64,000 bases of DNA from Paractinoplanes maris (GTDB lineage: Bacteria; Actinomycetota; Actinomycetes; Mycobacteriales; Micromonosporaceae), in contig NZ_JALPVL010000009.1 in NCBI RefSeq assembly GCF_023544465.1, positions 372,001 through 436,000 on the forward strand, read 5' to 3'. Below the pieces are notes generated by a model that worked only from the letters and a program-made list of their open reading frames with translations, ran no database searches and was not told the origin of the DNA. Positions 4,534-34,671 of the stretch are shown here, piece after piece. Positions within the stretch are counted from its first letter, which is position 1; each line of letters begins with the position of its first letter. Made by a program: the position numbers and the translations under genes.

Positions 4534-5852
4534 CGCGGCTGCTGCGGGCGCTGCACGACGACGCCGATCAGGCCGAGGCTGTGCGGGACGAGCACTCGGC
4601 GATCTCCCGGCACGAGCTGCTGGGCCGGGCGTCCGCGCTGGCCGCCGAGCTGGCCGGCCGCCGCATGATCGCCGTGGACGCCACCCCCACGATCGACACC
4701 GTCATCCGGATCACCGCCGCGCTGCTGGCGGGCGTTCCCGCCGTACCCGTGCCGCCCGACGCCGGCGAACTGGAGCGAGCCCACCTCCTCCGCGACTCCG
4801 GCGCCGAGCTGGTCGACGGGCCGACCACCCGGACTGCCACCACGGTGCCCGCCGAGCCCGGCCCCGACGCCCCCGCGCTGATCCTCTACACCAGCGGCAC
4901 CACCGGACCGCCCAAGGGCGCCGTCATCTCCCGCCGGGCGCTCGCCGCCGACCTCGACGCCCTGGCCGAGGTGTGGCAATGGACGCCGGACGACACACTG
5001 GTCCACGGCCTGCCGCTCTTCCACGTCCACGGGCTGGTGCTGGGCGTGCTCGGTCCGCTCCGGCTCGGGTCGCGGCTGGTTCACACCGGCCGGCCCACAC
5101 CCCAGGCGTACGCGGCCACGCCCGGCACCATGTATTTCGGCGTGCCCACGGTGTGGTCGCGGGTCTGCGCCGCCCCCACTGAGGCCCGCGCCCTCAGCCA
5201 CGCCCGCCTGCTGGTCTCCGGCAGCGCACCGCTGCCCGTCCCGGTCTTCGACGACCTGGTCGCGCTGACCGGTCAGGCGCCGGTCGAGCGGTACGGCATG
5301 ACCGAGACCCTGATCACCGTGAGCGCCCGCGCCGACGGCGAACGCCGCCCCGGCCAGGTCGGCCTGCCCGTTCCGGGCGTCGAGACCCGGCTGGTCGGCG
5401 AAGCGGGCGAAGCCGTGCCACCGGGCGACATCGGTCACCTGCAGGTCCGCGGGGCCACACTCTTCGACGGCTACCTGGGTCAGGAAAGGACCGAGGGCTG
5501 GTACGCGACCGGTGACGTCGCCACAATCGGGGCCGACGGCTGGCACCGGATCGTCGGCCGGGCCTCCACCGACCTGATCAAGACCGGCGGCTACCGGGTC
5601 GGCGCGGGAGAGGTCGAGGACGCGCTGCTGCTGCACCCGGCGGTGCGCGAGGCAGCCGTGATCGGCACCCCGCACCCCGACCTGGGCGAGCAGATCACCG
5701 CGTACGTGGTGGCCGAAGGCGCCCGCGAGGGCGACCTGATCGCCTGGGTCGCCGACCGCCTGGCCGCCCACAAACGGCCGCGCGCCGTGCATCTGGTCGA
5801 CGCCCTGCCGCGCAATGCGATGGGCAAGGTTCAAAAGGGAGCGTTGCGGTGA
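4530..5852 (+). CDS. matB: MatB-type malonyl-CoA synthetase (AMP-forming acyl-CoA ligase)
   Basis: A 440-residue member of the ANL adenylating superfamily. The phosphate-binding loop YTSGTTGPPKG is at residues 120-130. The order of further blocks matches actinobacterial MatB closely: VWQWTPDDTLVHGLPLFHVHGLVLG, a GR signal after the LVHTGR segment, ERYGMTETL, and DLIKTGGYRVGAGEVEDALL. The catalytic lysine region GKVQKG lies at the extreme C-terminus. MatB activates malonate, and often methylmalonate, with ATP and CoA, supplying extender units for fatty acid or polyketide synthesis. At 440 residues it is slightly shorter than usual because the N-terminal domain is compact. The GTG start overlaps the upstream stop, and its own stop overlaps the next GTG. 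A close alternative is another short-chain dicarboxylate ligase. Confidence 0.83.
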   Translation: MTRLLRALHDDADQAEAVRDEHSAISRHELLGRASALAAELAGRRMIAVDATPTIDTVIRITAALLAGVPAVPVPPDAGELERAHLLRDSGAELVDGPTTRTATTVPAEPGPDAPALILYTSGTTGPPKGAVISRRALAADLDALAEVWQWTPDDTLVHGLPLFHVHGLVLGVLGPLRLGSRLVHTGRPTPQAYAATPGTMYFGVPTVWSRVCAAPTEARALSHARLLVSGSAPLPVPVFDDLVALTGQAPVERYGMTETLITVSARADGERRPGQVGLPVPGVETRLVGEAGEAVPPGDIGHLQVRGATLFDGYLGQERTEGWYATGDVATIGADGWHRIVGRASTDLIKTGGYRVGAGEVEDALLLHPAVREAAVIGTPHPDLGEQITAYVVAEGAREGDLIAWVADRLAAHKRPRAVHLVDALPRNAMGKVQKGALR

Positions 5853-6601
5853 GGGTGGGTCTGAGTCCGCAGTGGTGGTTGCGGGTGCTGATCGTCGGCT
5901 GCGGACTGGCCGGTCTGCTGATCGGCGAGCATCGGCTCGCGTACTACACCAGCCAGAGCAACATCATCACGCTCGGCTACTTCGGCGGCGTCCTCTACTG
6001 GATGATCCGCCGCCGCACGACCGCCCCAGCAGCGCCCCGGCTGCGCGGCGCGGTCACCCTGTGGATCGTCATCACCGGCCTGATCTCCCACTTCATGCTC
6101 CAGAACGGCGAGAACCCGCTGCCCGGCCTGCTGATCGACGACCCGTCCCGGCAAGTGCTCAACTGGTCCCGCTTCCTGGTCCACTACGCCGTCCCGGTGC
6201 TCGTCCTGACCGACTGGCTTGCATTCGGGCCGCGCCGCGTCTCCCCATGGCGAGACCTTCCGCTGTGGATCCTCTACCCACTGGGCTACGGAGCGACCTC
6301 GGTGGCCCGGGCGGTCGCGTTCCCCACGGTCAGCGACCGCTACCCCTACTTCTTCCTGGACCCCACTTCCCAGGGGTACGGCTGGGTGGCCGGCCAGTTC
6401 GTCAAGCTCGGCGTCATCTTCGCGATCCTGGGAGCGGTCTTGCTGGCCTACGACCGCCTGGCCGCCCGCCTCACCCACACCATCCCCGAACCTCCCACCG
6501 ACGCCACAGCCCCTACCCAGGCCACAGCCCCCGCTGCCGCGACTGACCCGGCAGGCGCACCCAAAGCCGCGCCCGCCGAGTCCCAGCCCGCCCGGTCCTA
6601 G
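5849..6601 (+). CDS. Pr6Pr (FAR-17a/AIG1-like) family membrane protein
   Basis: A 250-residue membrane protein with six hydrophobic segments, near residues 11-30, 39-55, 67-88, 108-128, 137-160 and 185-206. Family-like features include YYTSQSNIITLGYFGG, LISHFMLQN, LVHYAVPVLVLTDWLAF with an HY pair, and YPYFFLD near the end of the fifth loop. FAR-17a/AIG1 relatives in eukaryotes hydrolyse fatty-acid esters through conserved Thr/His residues; in bacteria the role is unknown. The GTG start (5849) overlaps the matB stop. After residue 207 the tail is Pro/Ala/Thr-rich, and its last ten codons are the first units of the downstream repeat array. The stop TAG 6599-6601 itself sits in a repeat unit. 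Confidence 0.8.
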   Translation: MRVGLSPQWWLRVLIVGCGLAGLLIGEHRLAYYTSQSNIITLGYFGGVLYWMIRRRTTAPAAPRLRGAVTLWIVITGLISHFMLQNGENPLPGLLIDDPSRQVLNWSRFLVHYAVPVLVLTDWLAFGPRRVSPWRDLPLWILYPLGYGATSVARAVAFPTVSDRYPYFFLDPTSQGYGWVAGQFVKLGVIFAILGAVLLAYDRLAARLTHTIPEPPTDATAPTQATAPAAATDPAGAPKAAPAESQPARS

Positions 6602-7322
6602 CGTGCCGAGTCCTAGCGTGCCGAGTCCTAGCGTGCCGAGTCCTAGCGTGCCGAGTCCGAGCGTGCTGAGTCCTAGCCTGCGCGGTCCGAGCGTGCTGAG
6701 TCCTAGCCTGCGCGGTCCGAGCGTGCTGAGTCCTAGCCTGCGCGGTCCGAGCGTGCTGAGTCCTAGCCTGCGCGGTCCGAGCGTGCTGAGTCCTAGCCTG
6801 CGCGGTCCGAGCGTGCTGAGTCCTAGCCTGCGCGGTCCGAGCGTGCTGAGTCCCAGCCTGCGCGGTCCCAGCCTGCGCGGTCCCAGCCTGCGCGGTCCCA
6901 GCCTGCGCGGTCCCAGCCTGCGCGGTCCCAGCCTGCTGAGTCCCACCCGCGCGGCCCTAGCGTGCTGAGTCCTAGCTTGCACGGTCCCAGGGTGCCGAGT
7001 CACAGCCCGCGCTCCTAGGGTGCTGAGTCCGAGCCTGTGCGGTCCGAGCGCGCCGAGTCCCAGCGTGCGCGGTCCGAGGGTGCCGAGTCACAGCCCGCGC
7101 TCCTAGGGTGCTGAATCCCAGCCCGTGCGGTGCGGACGCGCCGAGTCCCAGCGTGCGCGGTCCTAGGGTGCCGAGTCACAGCCCGCGCTCCTAGGGTGCT
7201 GAATCCCAGCCGGTGCGGTGCGGTGCGGTGCGGACGCGGCGAGTCCTAGCTTGCGCGGTCCCAGCGTGCGAGTCCCAGCTCGCGCCGCCCCGGCGTGCCG
7301 GAGTTCAGCCTGCAGACTCCGA
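6571..7322. repeat. Nested tandem-repeat array (15-bp unit, 30-bp and 88-bp higher-order repeats)
   Basis: About 49 head-to-tail copies of a 15-bp unit close to GCGTGCCGAGTCCTA. Four plain units (6601-6660) are followed by six identical 30-bp dimers (6661-6840), each pairing GCGTGCTGAGTCCTA with GCCTGCGCGGTCCGA. Then come runs of GCCTGCGCGGTCCCA (6856-6930). From 6990 three 88-bp higher-order copies start at 6990, 7078 and 7166, each containing a shortened GCCCGCGCTCCTA unit. A GCGGT pentamer repeat lies at about 7212-7232, and units decay towards 7322. The array is unusually rich in CTAG. It begins inside the Pr6Pr coding end and fills the space before the convergent NlpC gene. The many ORFs across it are explained by the 15-bp period. 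Confidence 0.95.
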
Positions 7323-7345
7323 GGCGGAGCCGGCGAGGATGGGGC

Positions 7346-7891
7346 TCAGCTTCCGATCCGGGCGAACCTGACCTGGCTCGCGGACCAGATCCTGGCCAGC
7401 TTGACGCGGTCGCCGGGCTTGGGGGCGTGCCACACCCGGCCGGCGCCGGCGTAGACGGCCACGTGGTAGGCGCGGCCCCCGGACATCCAGAACACCAGGT
7501 CGCCCGGGCGAGCGGCGGCCTGGGAAATCTTGCGGGCCGCTGTGTACTGCGCCTGGGCGGTCCGCGGCAGCGTGAGGCCGACTTTCCCGTACGCGAATCC
7601 GGACAACCCGGAGCAGTCGAACGCGCCGGGACCTCGAGCCCCGTATTTATACGGCTTGCCCTGCTGAGCCCGGGCCACCGCGACGATCTTGTTGCCACGG
7701 ATGATCCCCGCGGCCACGGGAGTCAGTTTCGGCGTGGCCCCGGCCCGGGCGGCTGACGGGGTGGCTGCGGCTTGGGCGGCCGACGGGGTGGCCTCGGCCC
7801 GGGTGGCCGACGGGGTGATGAGCAGCGTGGTGGCGATGGCCGTCGCGGCGATGAGCAGCAGTAGGCGGCGCAGTGGCAGTGGGAAAGACAA
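7346..7891 (-). CDS. Secreted NlpC/P60 family peptidoglycan endopeptidase
   Basis: A 181-residue exported cysteine peptidase that should cut peptide stems of peptidoglycan. Residues 1-32 are a Sec signal peptide (basic start, long Leu/Ala/Ile core, then TRA). Residues 33-58 are a low-complexity linker with ATPSAA-type repeats. The NlpC/P60 domain spans about 64-181. The catalytic Cys is C93 (FDCSGLSGFAYG), the catalytic His is H143 (AYHVAVYAG) and the third polar residue is H155. The spacing is normal for the family. It stands alone on the minus strand with its 3' end facing the repeat array. Confidence 0.9.
   Translation of the reverse strand: MSFPLPLRRLLLLIAATAIATTLLITPSATRAEATPSAAQAAATPSAARAGATPKLTPVAAGIIRGNKIVAVARAQQGKPYKYGARGPGAFDCSGLSGFAYGKVGLTLPRTAQAQYTAARKISQAAARPGDLVFWMSGGRAYHVAVYAGAGRVWHAPKPGDRVKLARIWSASQVRFARIGS
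7741..7818. repeat. 27-bp direct repeat inside the NlpC/P60 linker
   Basis: Three near-identical units start at 7741, 7768 and 7795, each close to CGGCCCGGGCGGCCGACGGG plus GTGGCCT. In the encoded protein they give the repeated ATPSAA(Q/R)A linker between signal peptide and catalytic domain. The unit is nine codons, so expansion or loss keeps the frame. Confidence 0.75.
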
Positions 7892-8336
7892 GACGATCCT
7901 CGGTCCTTCAACCGCCTGCGAGGTTAGCTGTCGGATTAGGCCTGAAGGCGGCCCGTCGCTCGCGCGACCTCACCCCGAGCCGGCCCGTCACGGCGCCGGC
8001 GATTTGGTTCCCCCGTTCCCGCCCACTGAAGTTCCTGTCGGTGTCAGGTCGGGCCGCCCTCAGGTGGGCGGGACTCGGCGTCCCGGAGCGGCCACGGTTG
8101 GACGATCGGCCGGGTTTCGCGAACCTGACGCTTTCCCGGGCGCCCCACCGGACACTTCCGTCCCGGATCGGAATCTTCGTCCGATGTCTTTCCGGACATC
8201 CGGGATCAACAGCGGGTAACCAGCGCGATATCCGGCGCTCATCGCGGTGAGGCTCGTCACCGAATTGCCGCTGCCCAACCGCGGGATCGAGTCGCCGGCA
8301 CTCCCGAGCCGCACCGCTCGCGGTTACGCAGAGCAA
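7892..8336. other. Divergent intergenic region, no gene seen
   Basis: About 445 bases separate the NlpC gene (minus) from the cox operon (plus). Several overlapping open frames exist on both strands, but none has a ribosome site or recognisable product. I see no repeat or strong terminator. The stretch must hold the NlpC promoter and the upstream part of cox control. Confidence 0.4.
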
Positions 8337-34035: not shown

Positions 34036-34268
34036 TCAGCGCGCGGAGGGCCGGTTCAGCGGCGGGCGGGCCGGTCAGCGCGCGGAGGGCCGGTTCAGCG
34101 GCGGGCGGGCCGGTCAGCGCGCGGAGGGCCGGTTCAGCGGCGGGCGGGCCGGTCAGCGCGCGGAGGGCCGGTTCAGCGGCGGGCGGGCCGGTCAGCGCGC
34201 GGAGGGCCGGTTCAGCGGCGGACGGGCGGTCAGCGCGTGGAGGGCGGCTCAGCGCGGGACGGGCTGGT
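34036..34268. repeat. 39-bp tandem-repeat array between convergent genes
   Basis: Five 39-bp units start at 34036, 34075, 34114, 34153 and 34192, each beginning TCAGCGCGCGGAGGGCCGGT followed by TCAGCGGCGGGCGGGCCGG. The first four are identical; the fifth has small changes, and two half-units decay to 34268. Each unit is itself two related halves, so an older 19-20-bp duplication underlies it. It lies between the ends of the kinase and DoxX genes, and its last part encodes the DoxX C-terminus. An ORF overlapping the kinase stop (34008-34316) reads a 13-residue repeat. I do not consider it a gene. Confidence 0.95.
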
Positions 34269-34671
34269 CAGCGCGGACGAGCCGGCGGATCGAGGCGCGG
34301 CGCCCCCACGCGATGAAGGCGACCAGCGCGAACAGCAGCACGGGCGTGACCACCAGCGCGCCGCCGTCCAGGATGAACGCCTGGGTGATCGCGGCTCCCA
34401 CCATCAGCAGCGCCAGACCCACCGCGGCCGCCCCGGCCAGGCGCGGCACGAGCAGCCCGATCCCACCGGCCAGCTCCACCACCCCGATGAAGTAGCGGAA
34501 CCAGGGCGCGGCCCCCATGTCCTCGAAAATCTGCACCGCGTTCGCTTCACCGAACAGCTTCGGCGCCGCCGAGCCGACGATCAGGAAGACCCCGATCAGG
34601 ATCTGGAGCACCCACAGTGTGCGGTTCAGCGCGGGCGCGACCGGTGCGGACGCGGTGTCGATGGCAGTCAT
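34249..34671 (-). CDS. DoxX family membrane protein
   Basis: A 140-residue four-helix membrane protein of the DoxX group: helices near LWVLQILIGVFLIVGSA, WFRYFIGVVELAGGIGLLVP, AAAVGLALLMVGAAITQAF and LVVTPVLLFALVAFIAWG. The APKLF and GVVELAGGIGLL signatures are standard. DoxX proteins have been tied to thiosulfate-quinone oxidation and redox membrane complexes, but most are uncharacterised. The last ten residues are encoded by the decayed end of the 39-bp array, so the native C-terminus may have been altered by repeat growth. Confidence 0.85.
   Translation of the reverse strand: MTAIDTASAPVAPALNRTLWVLQILIGVFLIVGSAAPKLFGEANAVQIFEDMGAAPWFRYFIGVVELAGGIGLLVPRLAGAAAVGLALLMVGAAITQAFILDGGALVVTPVLLFALVAFIAWGRRASIRRLVRADQPVPR

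Follow-up and report, generated by a model that had tools for sequence, protein, structure and literature searches.

One of the closest described counterparts of the array reported here is VNTR3239/ETR-F of M. tuberculosis, which lies between rnc and fpg1 and consists of 55- and 79-bp units that are themselves built of parts of 37, 26, 18 and 16 bp (PMC2734929). The gap that it occupies measures 358 bp in H37Rv as against 1-54 bp in the tabulated species outside the complex, and its copy number differs among isolates and has been linked to fpg1 expression (PMC2734929). On a broader scale, prokaryotic satellites have been surveyed as local tandem repeats with a unit of 10-200 bp that are often unique in sequence and arise in place (Subirana and Messeguer 2019; PMC6749651). 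A further class of gene-end repeats, the REP-type palindromic elements, mainly takes positions downstream of a gene, in gaps of the same-strand and convergent type (PMC3733652).

The array described here lies in a stretch of 64,000 nucleotides of Paractinoplanes maris (C31:372001-436000, in the following the window), which is part of a 462,808-bp contig of a draft genome of 9.35 Mb in 31 contigs. Cut unit by unit, it comprises 49 units of ~15 bp that span 6579-7298. TRF reports a period of 15 at 6571-7089 and a period of 30 at 6578-7219 (21.6 copies, score 706), with a tail to 7298, whereas 20 windows randomised with a second-order Markov model scored 93 at most; the array is no chance feature. 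Read on the + strand, it begins with a part that still codes for the C-terminus of the Pr6Pr protein, this part ending in a TAG stop inside a unit (6579-6601, from the ORF and the unit cut). Four identical 15-bp units (GTCCTAGCGTGCCGA; 6595-6654) are followed by six perfect 30-bp dimers (GTCCGAGCGTGCTGA + GTCCTAGCCTGCGCG; 6655-6834, with copies at 6655, 6685, 6715, 6745, 6775 and 6805) and by five identical 15-bp units (GTCCCAGCCTGCGCG; 6850-6924). A degenerate stretch (6940-7012) contains the first 14-bp units and closes with 59 bp that approximate a shortened 88-bp block, after which come three 88-bp higher-order blocks starting at 7013, 7101 and 7189 (7013-7100, 7101-7188 and 7189-7286) and a degenerate final unit (7287-7298). 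The third block is 10 bp longer, the additional bases deriving from a pentamer run of four copies at 7212-7231. Altogether 23 consecutive units (6595-6939) are each exactly 15 bp long, those further on measure 10-15 bp, and units are divergent at the array edges and identical inside. Nested order with divergent edges and an identical interior is the footprint of repeated slippage or unequal exchange. The preliminary description had given the same anatomy of units, dimers, 88-bp copies and pentamer run, and had likewise called the array CTAG-rich, which agrees with 17 CTAG in 6571-7322 vs 10 in the remaining window.

The two flanking genes are convergent. To the left lies the gene of a Pr6Pr family membrane protein (5849-6601, + strand), an ORF that matches NCBIfam NF038065 over residues 30-203 (E 4.4e-24) and carries a variable tail beyond residue ~205, the tails differing among relatives. 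To the right, an NlpC/P60 peptidase gene (7346-7891, - strand; ORF, Pfam PF00877, E 1.9e-22) ends with its stop at 7346-7348. The gap between them measures 744 bp, of which the array occupies 697; that the array fills the gap had been claimed before and stands, but it ends near 7298 and not at 7322. The Pr6Pr stop TAG (6599-6601) lies inside a unit, as the earlier account also had it, namely the second, and the end of Pr6Pr is indeed encoded in the array, by about one and a half units rather than by two. The gene order of AMP-binding enzyme, Pr6Pr, convergent NlpC/P60 and FAD-binding dehydrogenase subunit is kept in five named relatives. Just upstream of the NlpC/P60 gene, a c-di-AMP (ydaO/yuaA) riboswitch was detected at 7897-8053 on the minus strand (42.2 bits vs a gathering score of 38), a position from which it may place this gene under c-di-AMP control.

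The same gap was inspected directly in 11 relatives that possess the convergent Pr6Pr-NlpC/P60 pair, and the array was found in none of them (0/11); absence or shortness in sister species is a supporting, not a defining, mark of a VNTR. The gaps measure -26, 4, 8, 15, 80, 98, 210, 234, 1760, 1765 and 2020 bp. The negative value belongs to Actinoplanes sp. M2I2, the nearest relative seen (81% identity of the Pr6Pr protein; the other named relatives are likewise Actinoplanes or Paractinoplanes), where the pair shares 26 bp of overlap. The M2I2 flanks align across the gap, and a single sequence at the site is loosely unit-like, a weak resemblance judged by eye on the alignment. The one BLAST match in M2I2 (40 bp, 77.5%, in reverse orientation) looks like chance GC-rich similarity. 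When the array was used as query against 67 genomes of the genus, its own included, matches at E <= 1e-8 were obtained in nine; among the 8 candidate places scored per genome, no foreign match lay near Pr6Pr and its own genome alone matched at the locus. Since this search scored just 8 places per genome, absence is taken from the direct inspection of the gaps; the comparison covers one genome per species, and the age and instability of the array are bounded by M2I2 only.

In four of the 11 relatives the gap contains or adjoins unrelated tandem repeats: P. pyxinae has a stretch with a period of 125 bp, G050 has pairs of 22 and 32 bp, G019 has a 22-bp unit in three copies and G012 a 58-bp unit in 2.5 copies. 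The other seven gaps are without any repeat; as background, TRF reports some array in 48/355 convergent gaps. The repeats of G019 and G012 start in the final Pr6Pr codons and contain the Pr6Pr stop codon, as in the window. This gap, and convergent gaps generally, collect arrays repeatedly. In the preliminary description, lack of the array in relatives was to mark it as local noise; it is local to its lineage, but it goes beyond isolated noise, convergent gaps having gathered arrays again and again. As separate observations on this gap, a putative transposase gene, presumably of IS30 type as judged by eye from its sequence, lies beside the repeat array of P. pyxinae (L060:7240-8460), and the G003 assembly has Pr6Pr at one contig's end and the NlpC/P60 relative where the following contig begins (C18 and C19), so that it may break in this gap as well.

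The P. maris genome holds further arrays of this kind. Two more lie in convergent gaps (C31 L163:6282-6912 and C28 L137:7649-8370). Neither has a counterpart in M2I2, which does carry both flanking genes in each case, 52 bp apart or overlapping. The surroundings of the second (L137:7459-8460) consist of ~1 kb of CCTAGG-rich repeats of ~14-16 bp between convergent genes, which in M2I2 overlap by a few bases. Within the window itself, a second array of 39-bp period and 95% match occupies a convergent gap at 34036-34285; in the M2I2 stretches examined, no match to its right-hand gene was found next to the left one, and for this reason the array was not used as an empty-site case. At L137:9301-9560, a 58-bp repeat starts where a 152-aa plus-strand ORF ends, has the TGA stop of this ORF in its unit and precedes a minus-strand gene; the simple caller did not list the ORF among its genes. 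Long period-15 arrays also occur at L007:4347-5028, inside a large minus-strand gene, and at L008:3552-3985, where the array reads as pentapeptides and was not classed as coding by the caller. The three longest gap-placed arrays in the sample of this genome, that of the window included, are all in convergent gaps.

Taken together, the array is probably a young lineage-specific minisatellite that grew by slippage or unequal exchange and has been tolerated since convergent gaps are little constrained. The seed would have been a short, GC-rich piece of the variable 3' tail of Pr6Pr that was duplicated in tandem; replication slippage or unequal exchange between copies would then have amplified it anew at scales of 15, 30 and 88 bp. 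With TAG present in amplified unit variants, Pr6Pr would have come to end in the first copies and the remainder to be non-coding; because the array beyond the first copies is non-coding, later length changes would have been freed from multiples of three. Amplification went on after the stop arose, since 10 of the 23 exact 15-bp units from 6595 carry TAG in the Pr6Pr frame. The array would then persist because neither a promoter nor a ribosome-binding site is required where two genes meet with their 3' ends, which makes insertions there cheap. Growth by repeated slippage or unequal crossover at a gene end had been proposed at the outset and is supported by the homogenised dimers, the nested 88-bp period and the lack of an array in M2I2. 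As it is not conserved and shows no known signals, the array is most likely neutral; a species-specific effect on the Pr6Pr and NlpC/P60 genes may nevertheless exist.

An alternative origin would be a decayed coding tail, in which Pr6Pr once carried an in-frame pentapeptide tail that was cut by a change of CAG or GAG to TAG. The 23 consecutive 15-bp units do keep the Pr6Pr frame, which stays open across them if TAG is read through, and a coding period-15 array exists elsewhere in the genome (C1:671346-672027). A 15-bp unit, however, preserves any frame, the C-terminal tails of relatives are without a pentapeptide run (35 loci, with 15 left out as wrong-strand frames), and the TAG-bearing units place much of the amplification after the stop, which makes this origin unlikely.

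How arrays are distributed over gap classes was assessed in a sample of 2.464 Mb, made up of 1.264 Mb of the P. maris genome (window included, taken in regular steps along six of the 31 contigs and not at random) and 0.4 Mb each of G064 and G009, two other Actinoplanes, and of G035, from another family of the same order. Arrays were called by TRF and genes by a simple codon-usage caller, not taken from curated annotation; gaps of <=1500 bp and arrays of >=60 bp were counted, and 12 arrays of the P. maris sample were left out as 'edge'. An array is present in 41/365 convergent, 40/1222 same-strand and 8/353 divergent gaps, the convergent excess being significant over both divergent (Fisher p 1e-6) and same-strand gaps (3e-8). 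With the window left out, the fractions become 39/353, 39/1186 and 8/342, and the share of gap bases taken up by arrays is 15.6% in convergent, 4.4% in same-strand and 1.2% in divergent gaps. By share of bases, convergent gaps rank above both other classes in each of the four genomes, while in G064 alone convergent vs divergent is not significant (p 0.17). Arrays of the sampled genomes thus seem to sit preferentially in convergent gaps. Counted per gene 3' end, the rate is 5.6% for convergent vs 3.3% for same-strand gaps (only 1.7-fold), so that position at a gene end explains much of the pattern. Within same-strand gaps the lean towards the end of the upstream gene is not significant (29/46, p 0.10). 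Among the 294 arrays are 28 that run across a stop codon and four that run across a start codon, a comparison that is biased because the masked caller cannot start a gene inside an array; two unmasked variants with other start rules gave 29:2 and 28:11. The periods of convergent-gap arrays are divisible by three in 15/46 cases, matching chance. The consulted portions of the literature on tandem repeats in Actinoplanes and other actinobacteria and on convergent-gap repeats, among them the genome report of Actinoplanes SE50/110 (PMC3364876), contain no report of this pattern.

From these counts a wider reading could be drawn, according to which gene ends in GC-rich actinobacteria, above all convergent gaps, would repeatedly give rise to independent minisatellites with unrelated units and stop codons in their units, amounting to about one sixth of the sampled convergent intergenic DNA, with convergent transcription perhaps promoting their birth; we put this forward tentatively and regard it in this full form as rather doubtful. 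Somewhat less likely still is that birth is driven by transcription itself, head-on RNA polymerases or R-loops raising slippage or breakage such that convergent gaps make arrays instead of only tolerating them. The first rank of convergent gaps in all four genomes and their higher rate per 3' end are what such a mechanism would produce, but the same ranking is predicted by a lack of constraint, and the excess per end is modest.

The preliminary description had considered a transcription-collision zone or a protein-binding platform, roles that find no support in computations on folding, terminators, promoters, Rfam families or shared units. RNA folding of either strand was no better than that of its shuffled versions (z +1.70 and +0.65, 20 per strand), simple scans found neither an intrinsic terminator (a GC-rich stem with a T run behind it) in 6300-7700 nor a sigma-70-like promoter in the array, and the sole Rfam match falls outside it. 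Beyond the Pr6Pr tail no protein code was detected in the array. Coding in another frame was considered and rejected, several frames being open because the 15-bp unit gives each of them five codons only. It is thus very unlikely that the array is a functional spacer or terminator zone that parts the two transcripts and blocks read-through. A gap of which all but a small remainder is array, where M2I2 has an overlap, would suit such a role; neither folding excess, terminator nor promoter accompanies it, and in four relatives the two genes overlap or stand 4-15 bp apart.

Nor does the unit recur. GGTCCCAG and CTAG each occur in just one of the 71 non-coding arrays sampled from the P. maris genome, which come from ~1.26 of its 9.35 Mb and were not picked by similarity; a CTAG-based function was set aside on this count. 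As units are not shared, the arrays seem to arise independently of one another. A shared core motif, suggested by GTCCCAGC matches, was dropped after a test on the non-coding arrays of three genomes (71, 39 and 24 arrays): the commonest shared 7-mers reach or slightly exceed the null (15 in P. maris vs a maximum of 13 in 300 draws) and are generic GC-rich triplet runs, and the earlier impression of a common core had arisen because the search query was the array itself. That the array belongs to a mobile or dispersed family of minisatellites built on a common core is therefore highly improbable; partly similar GTCCCAGC-type arrays do turn up in DNA searches at two other loci of the genome and in eight other species, but these matches carry the bias of the array query, and a family with the same unit at several loci does not fit a core seen once in 71 arrays. 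An assembly artefact is equally hard to credit: the genome is a draft, the perfect-dimer run of ~195 bp exceeds typical short-read length and the unit count there could be wrong, yet the units diverge, the array sits in a long contig with unique flanks, and G009 and G064, each assembled as a single contig, have similar arrays too.

The locus offers a clean case in which an overlap in the nearest relative corresponds to a 0.74 kb gap that tandem copies fill, the stop codon lying inside the repeat, and the sample yields a testable rule, namely that bacterial minisatellites favour gene 3' ends and convergent gaps. This rule bears on the evolution of intergenic space and of protein C-termini, and such gaps are natural sites to ask if head-on transcription raises slippage. 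The array itself is of a known kind and ordinary for it, the preference for this type of gap being the interesting part. With units of 10-200 bp in at least four head-to-tail repeats, and being mostly non-coding (697 bp intergenic, ~23 bp coding), it agrees with minisatellites as delimited in the survey of prokaryotic satellites, and like these it is local, has a sequence of its own and has arisen in place; unlike it, the repeats emphasised in the sections consulted are coding ones and short satellites (PMC6749651). A term search of the main text of that survey did not return the word "convergent" (PMC6749651). With REP-type elements it has in common a similar preference for gene ends, but these are dispersed palindromes with a shared sequence, whereas the window holds direct repeats that lack inverted repeats of >=15 bp and excess folding and so are not palindromic units of REP/BIME type (PMC3733652). 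That no named bacterial element has this structure, as the preliminary description held, is too strong a statement in view of VNTR3239/ETR-F (PMC2734929). The latter lies between rnc and the fpg1 start codon and its variation is known from isolates, whereas the array of the window lies between two convergent 3' ends and is known from one genome; both are nested and lineage-specific, and in both cases related species have a short gap at the site (PMC2734929).
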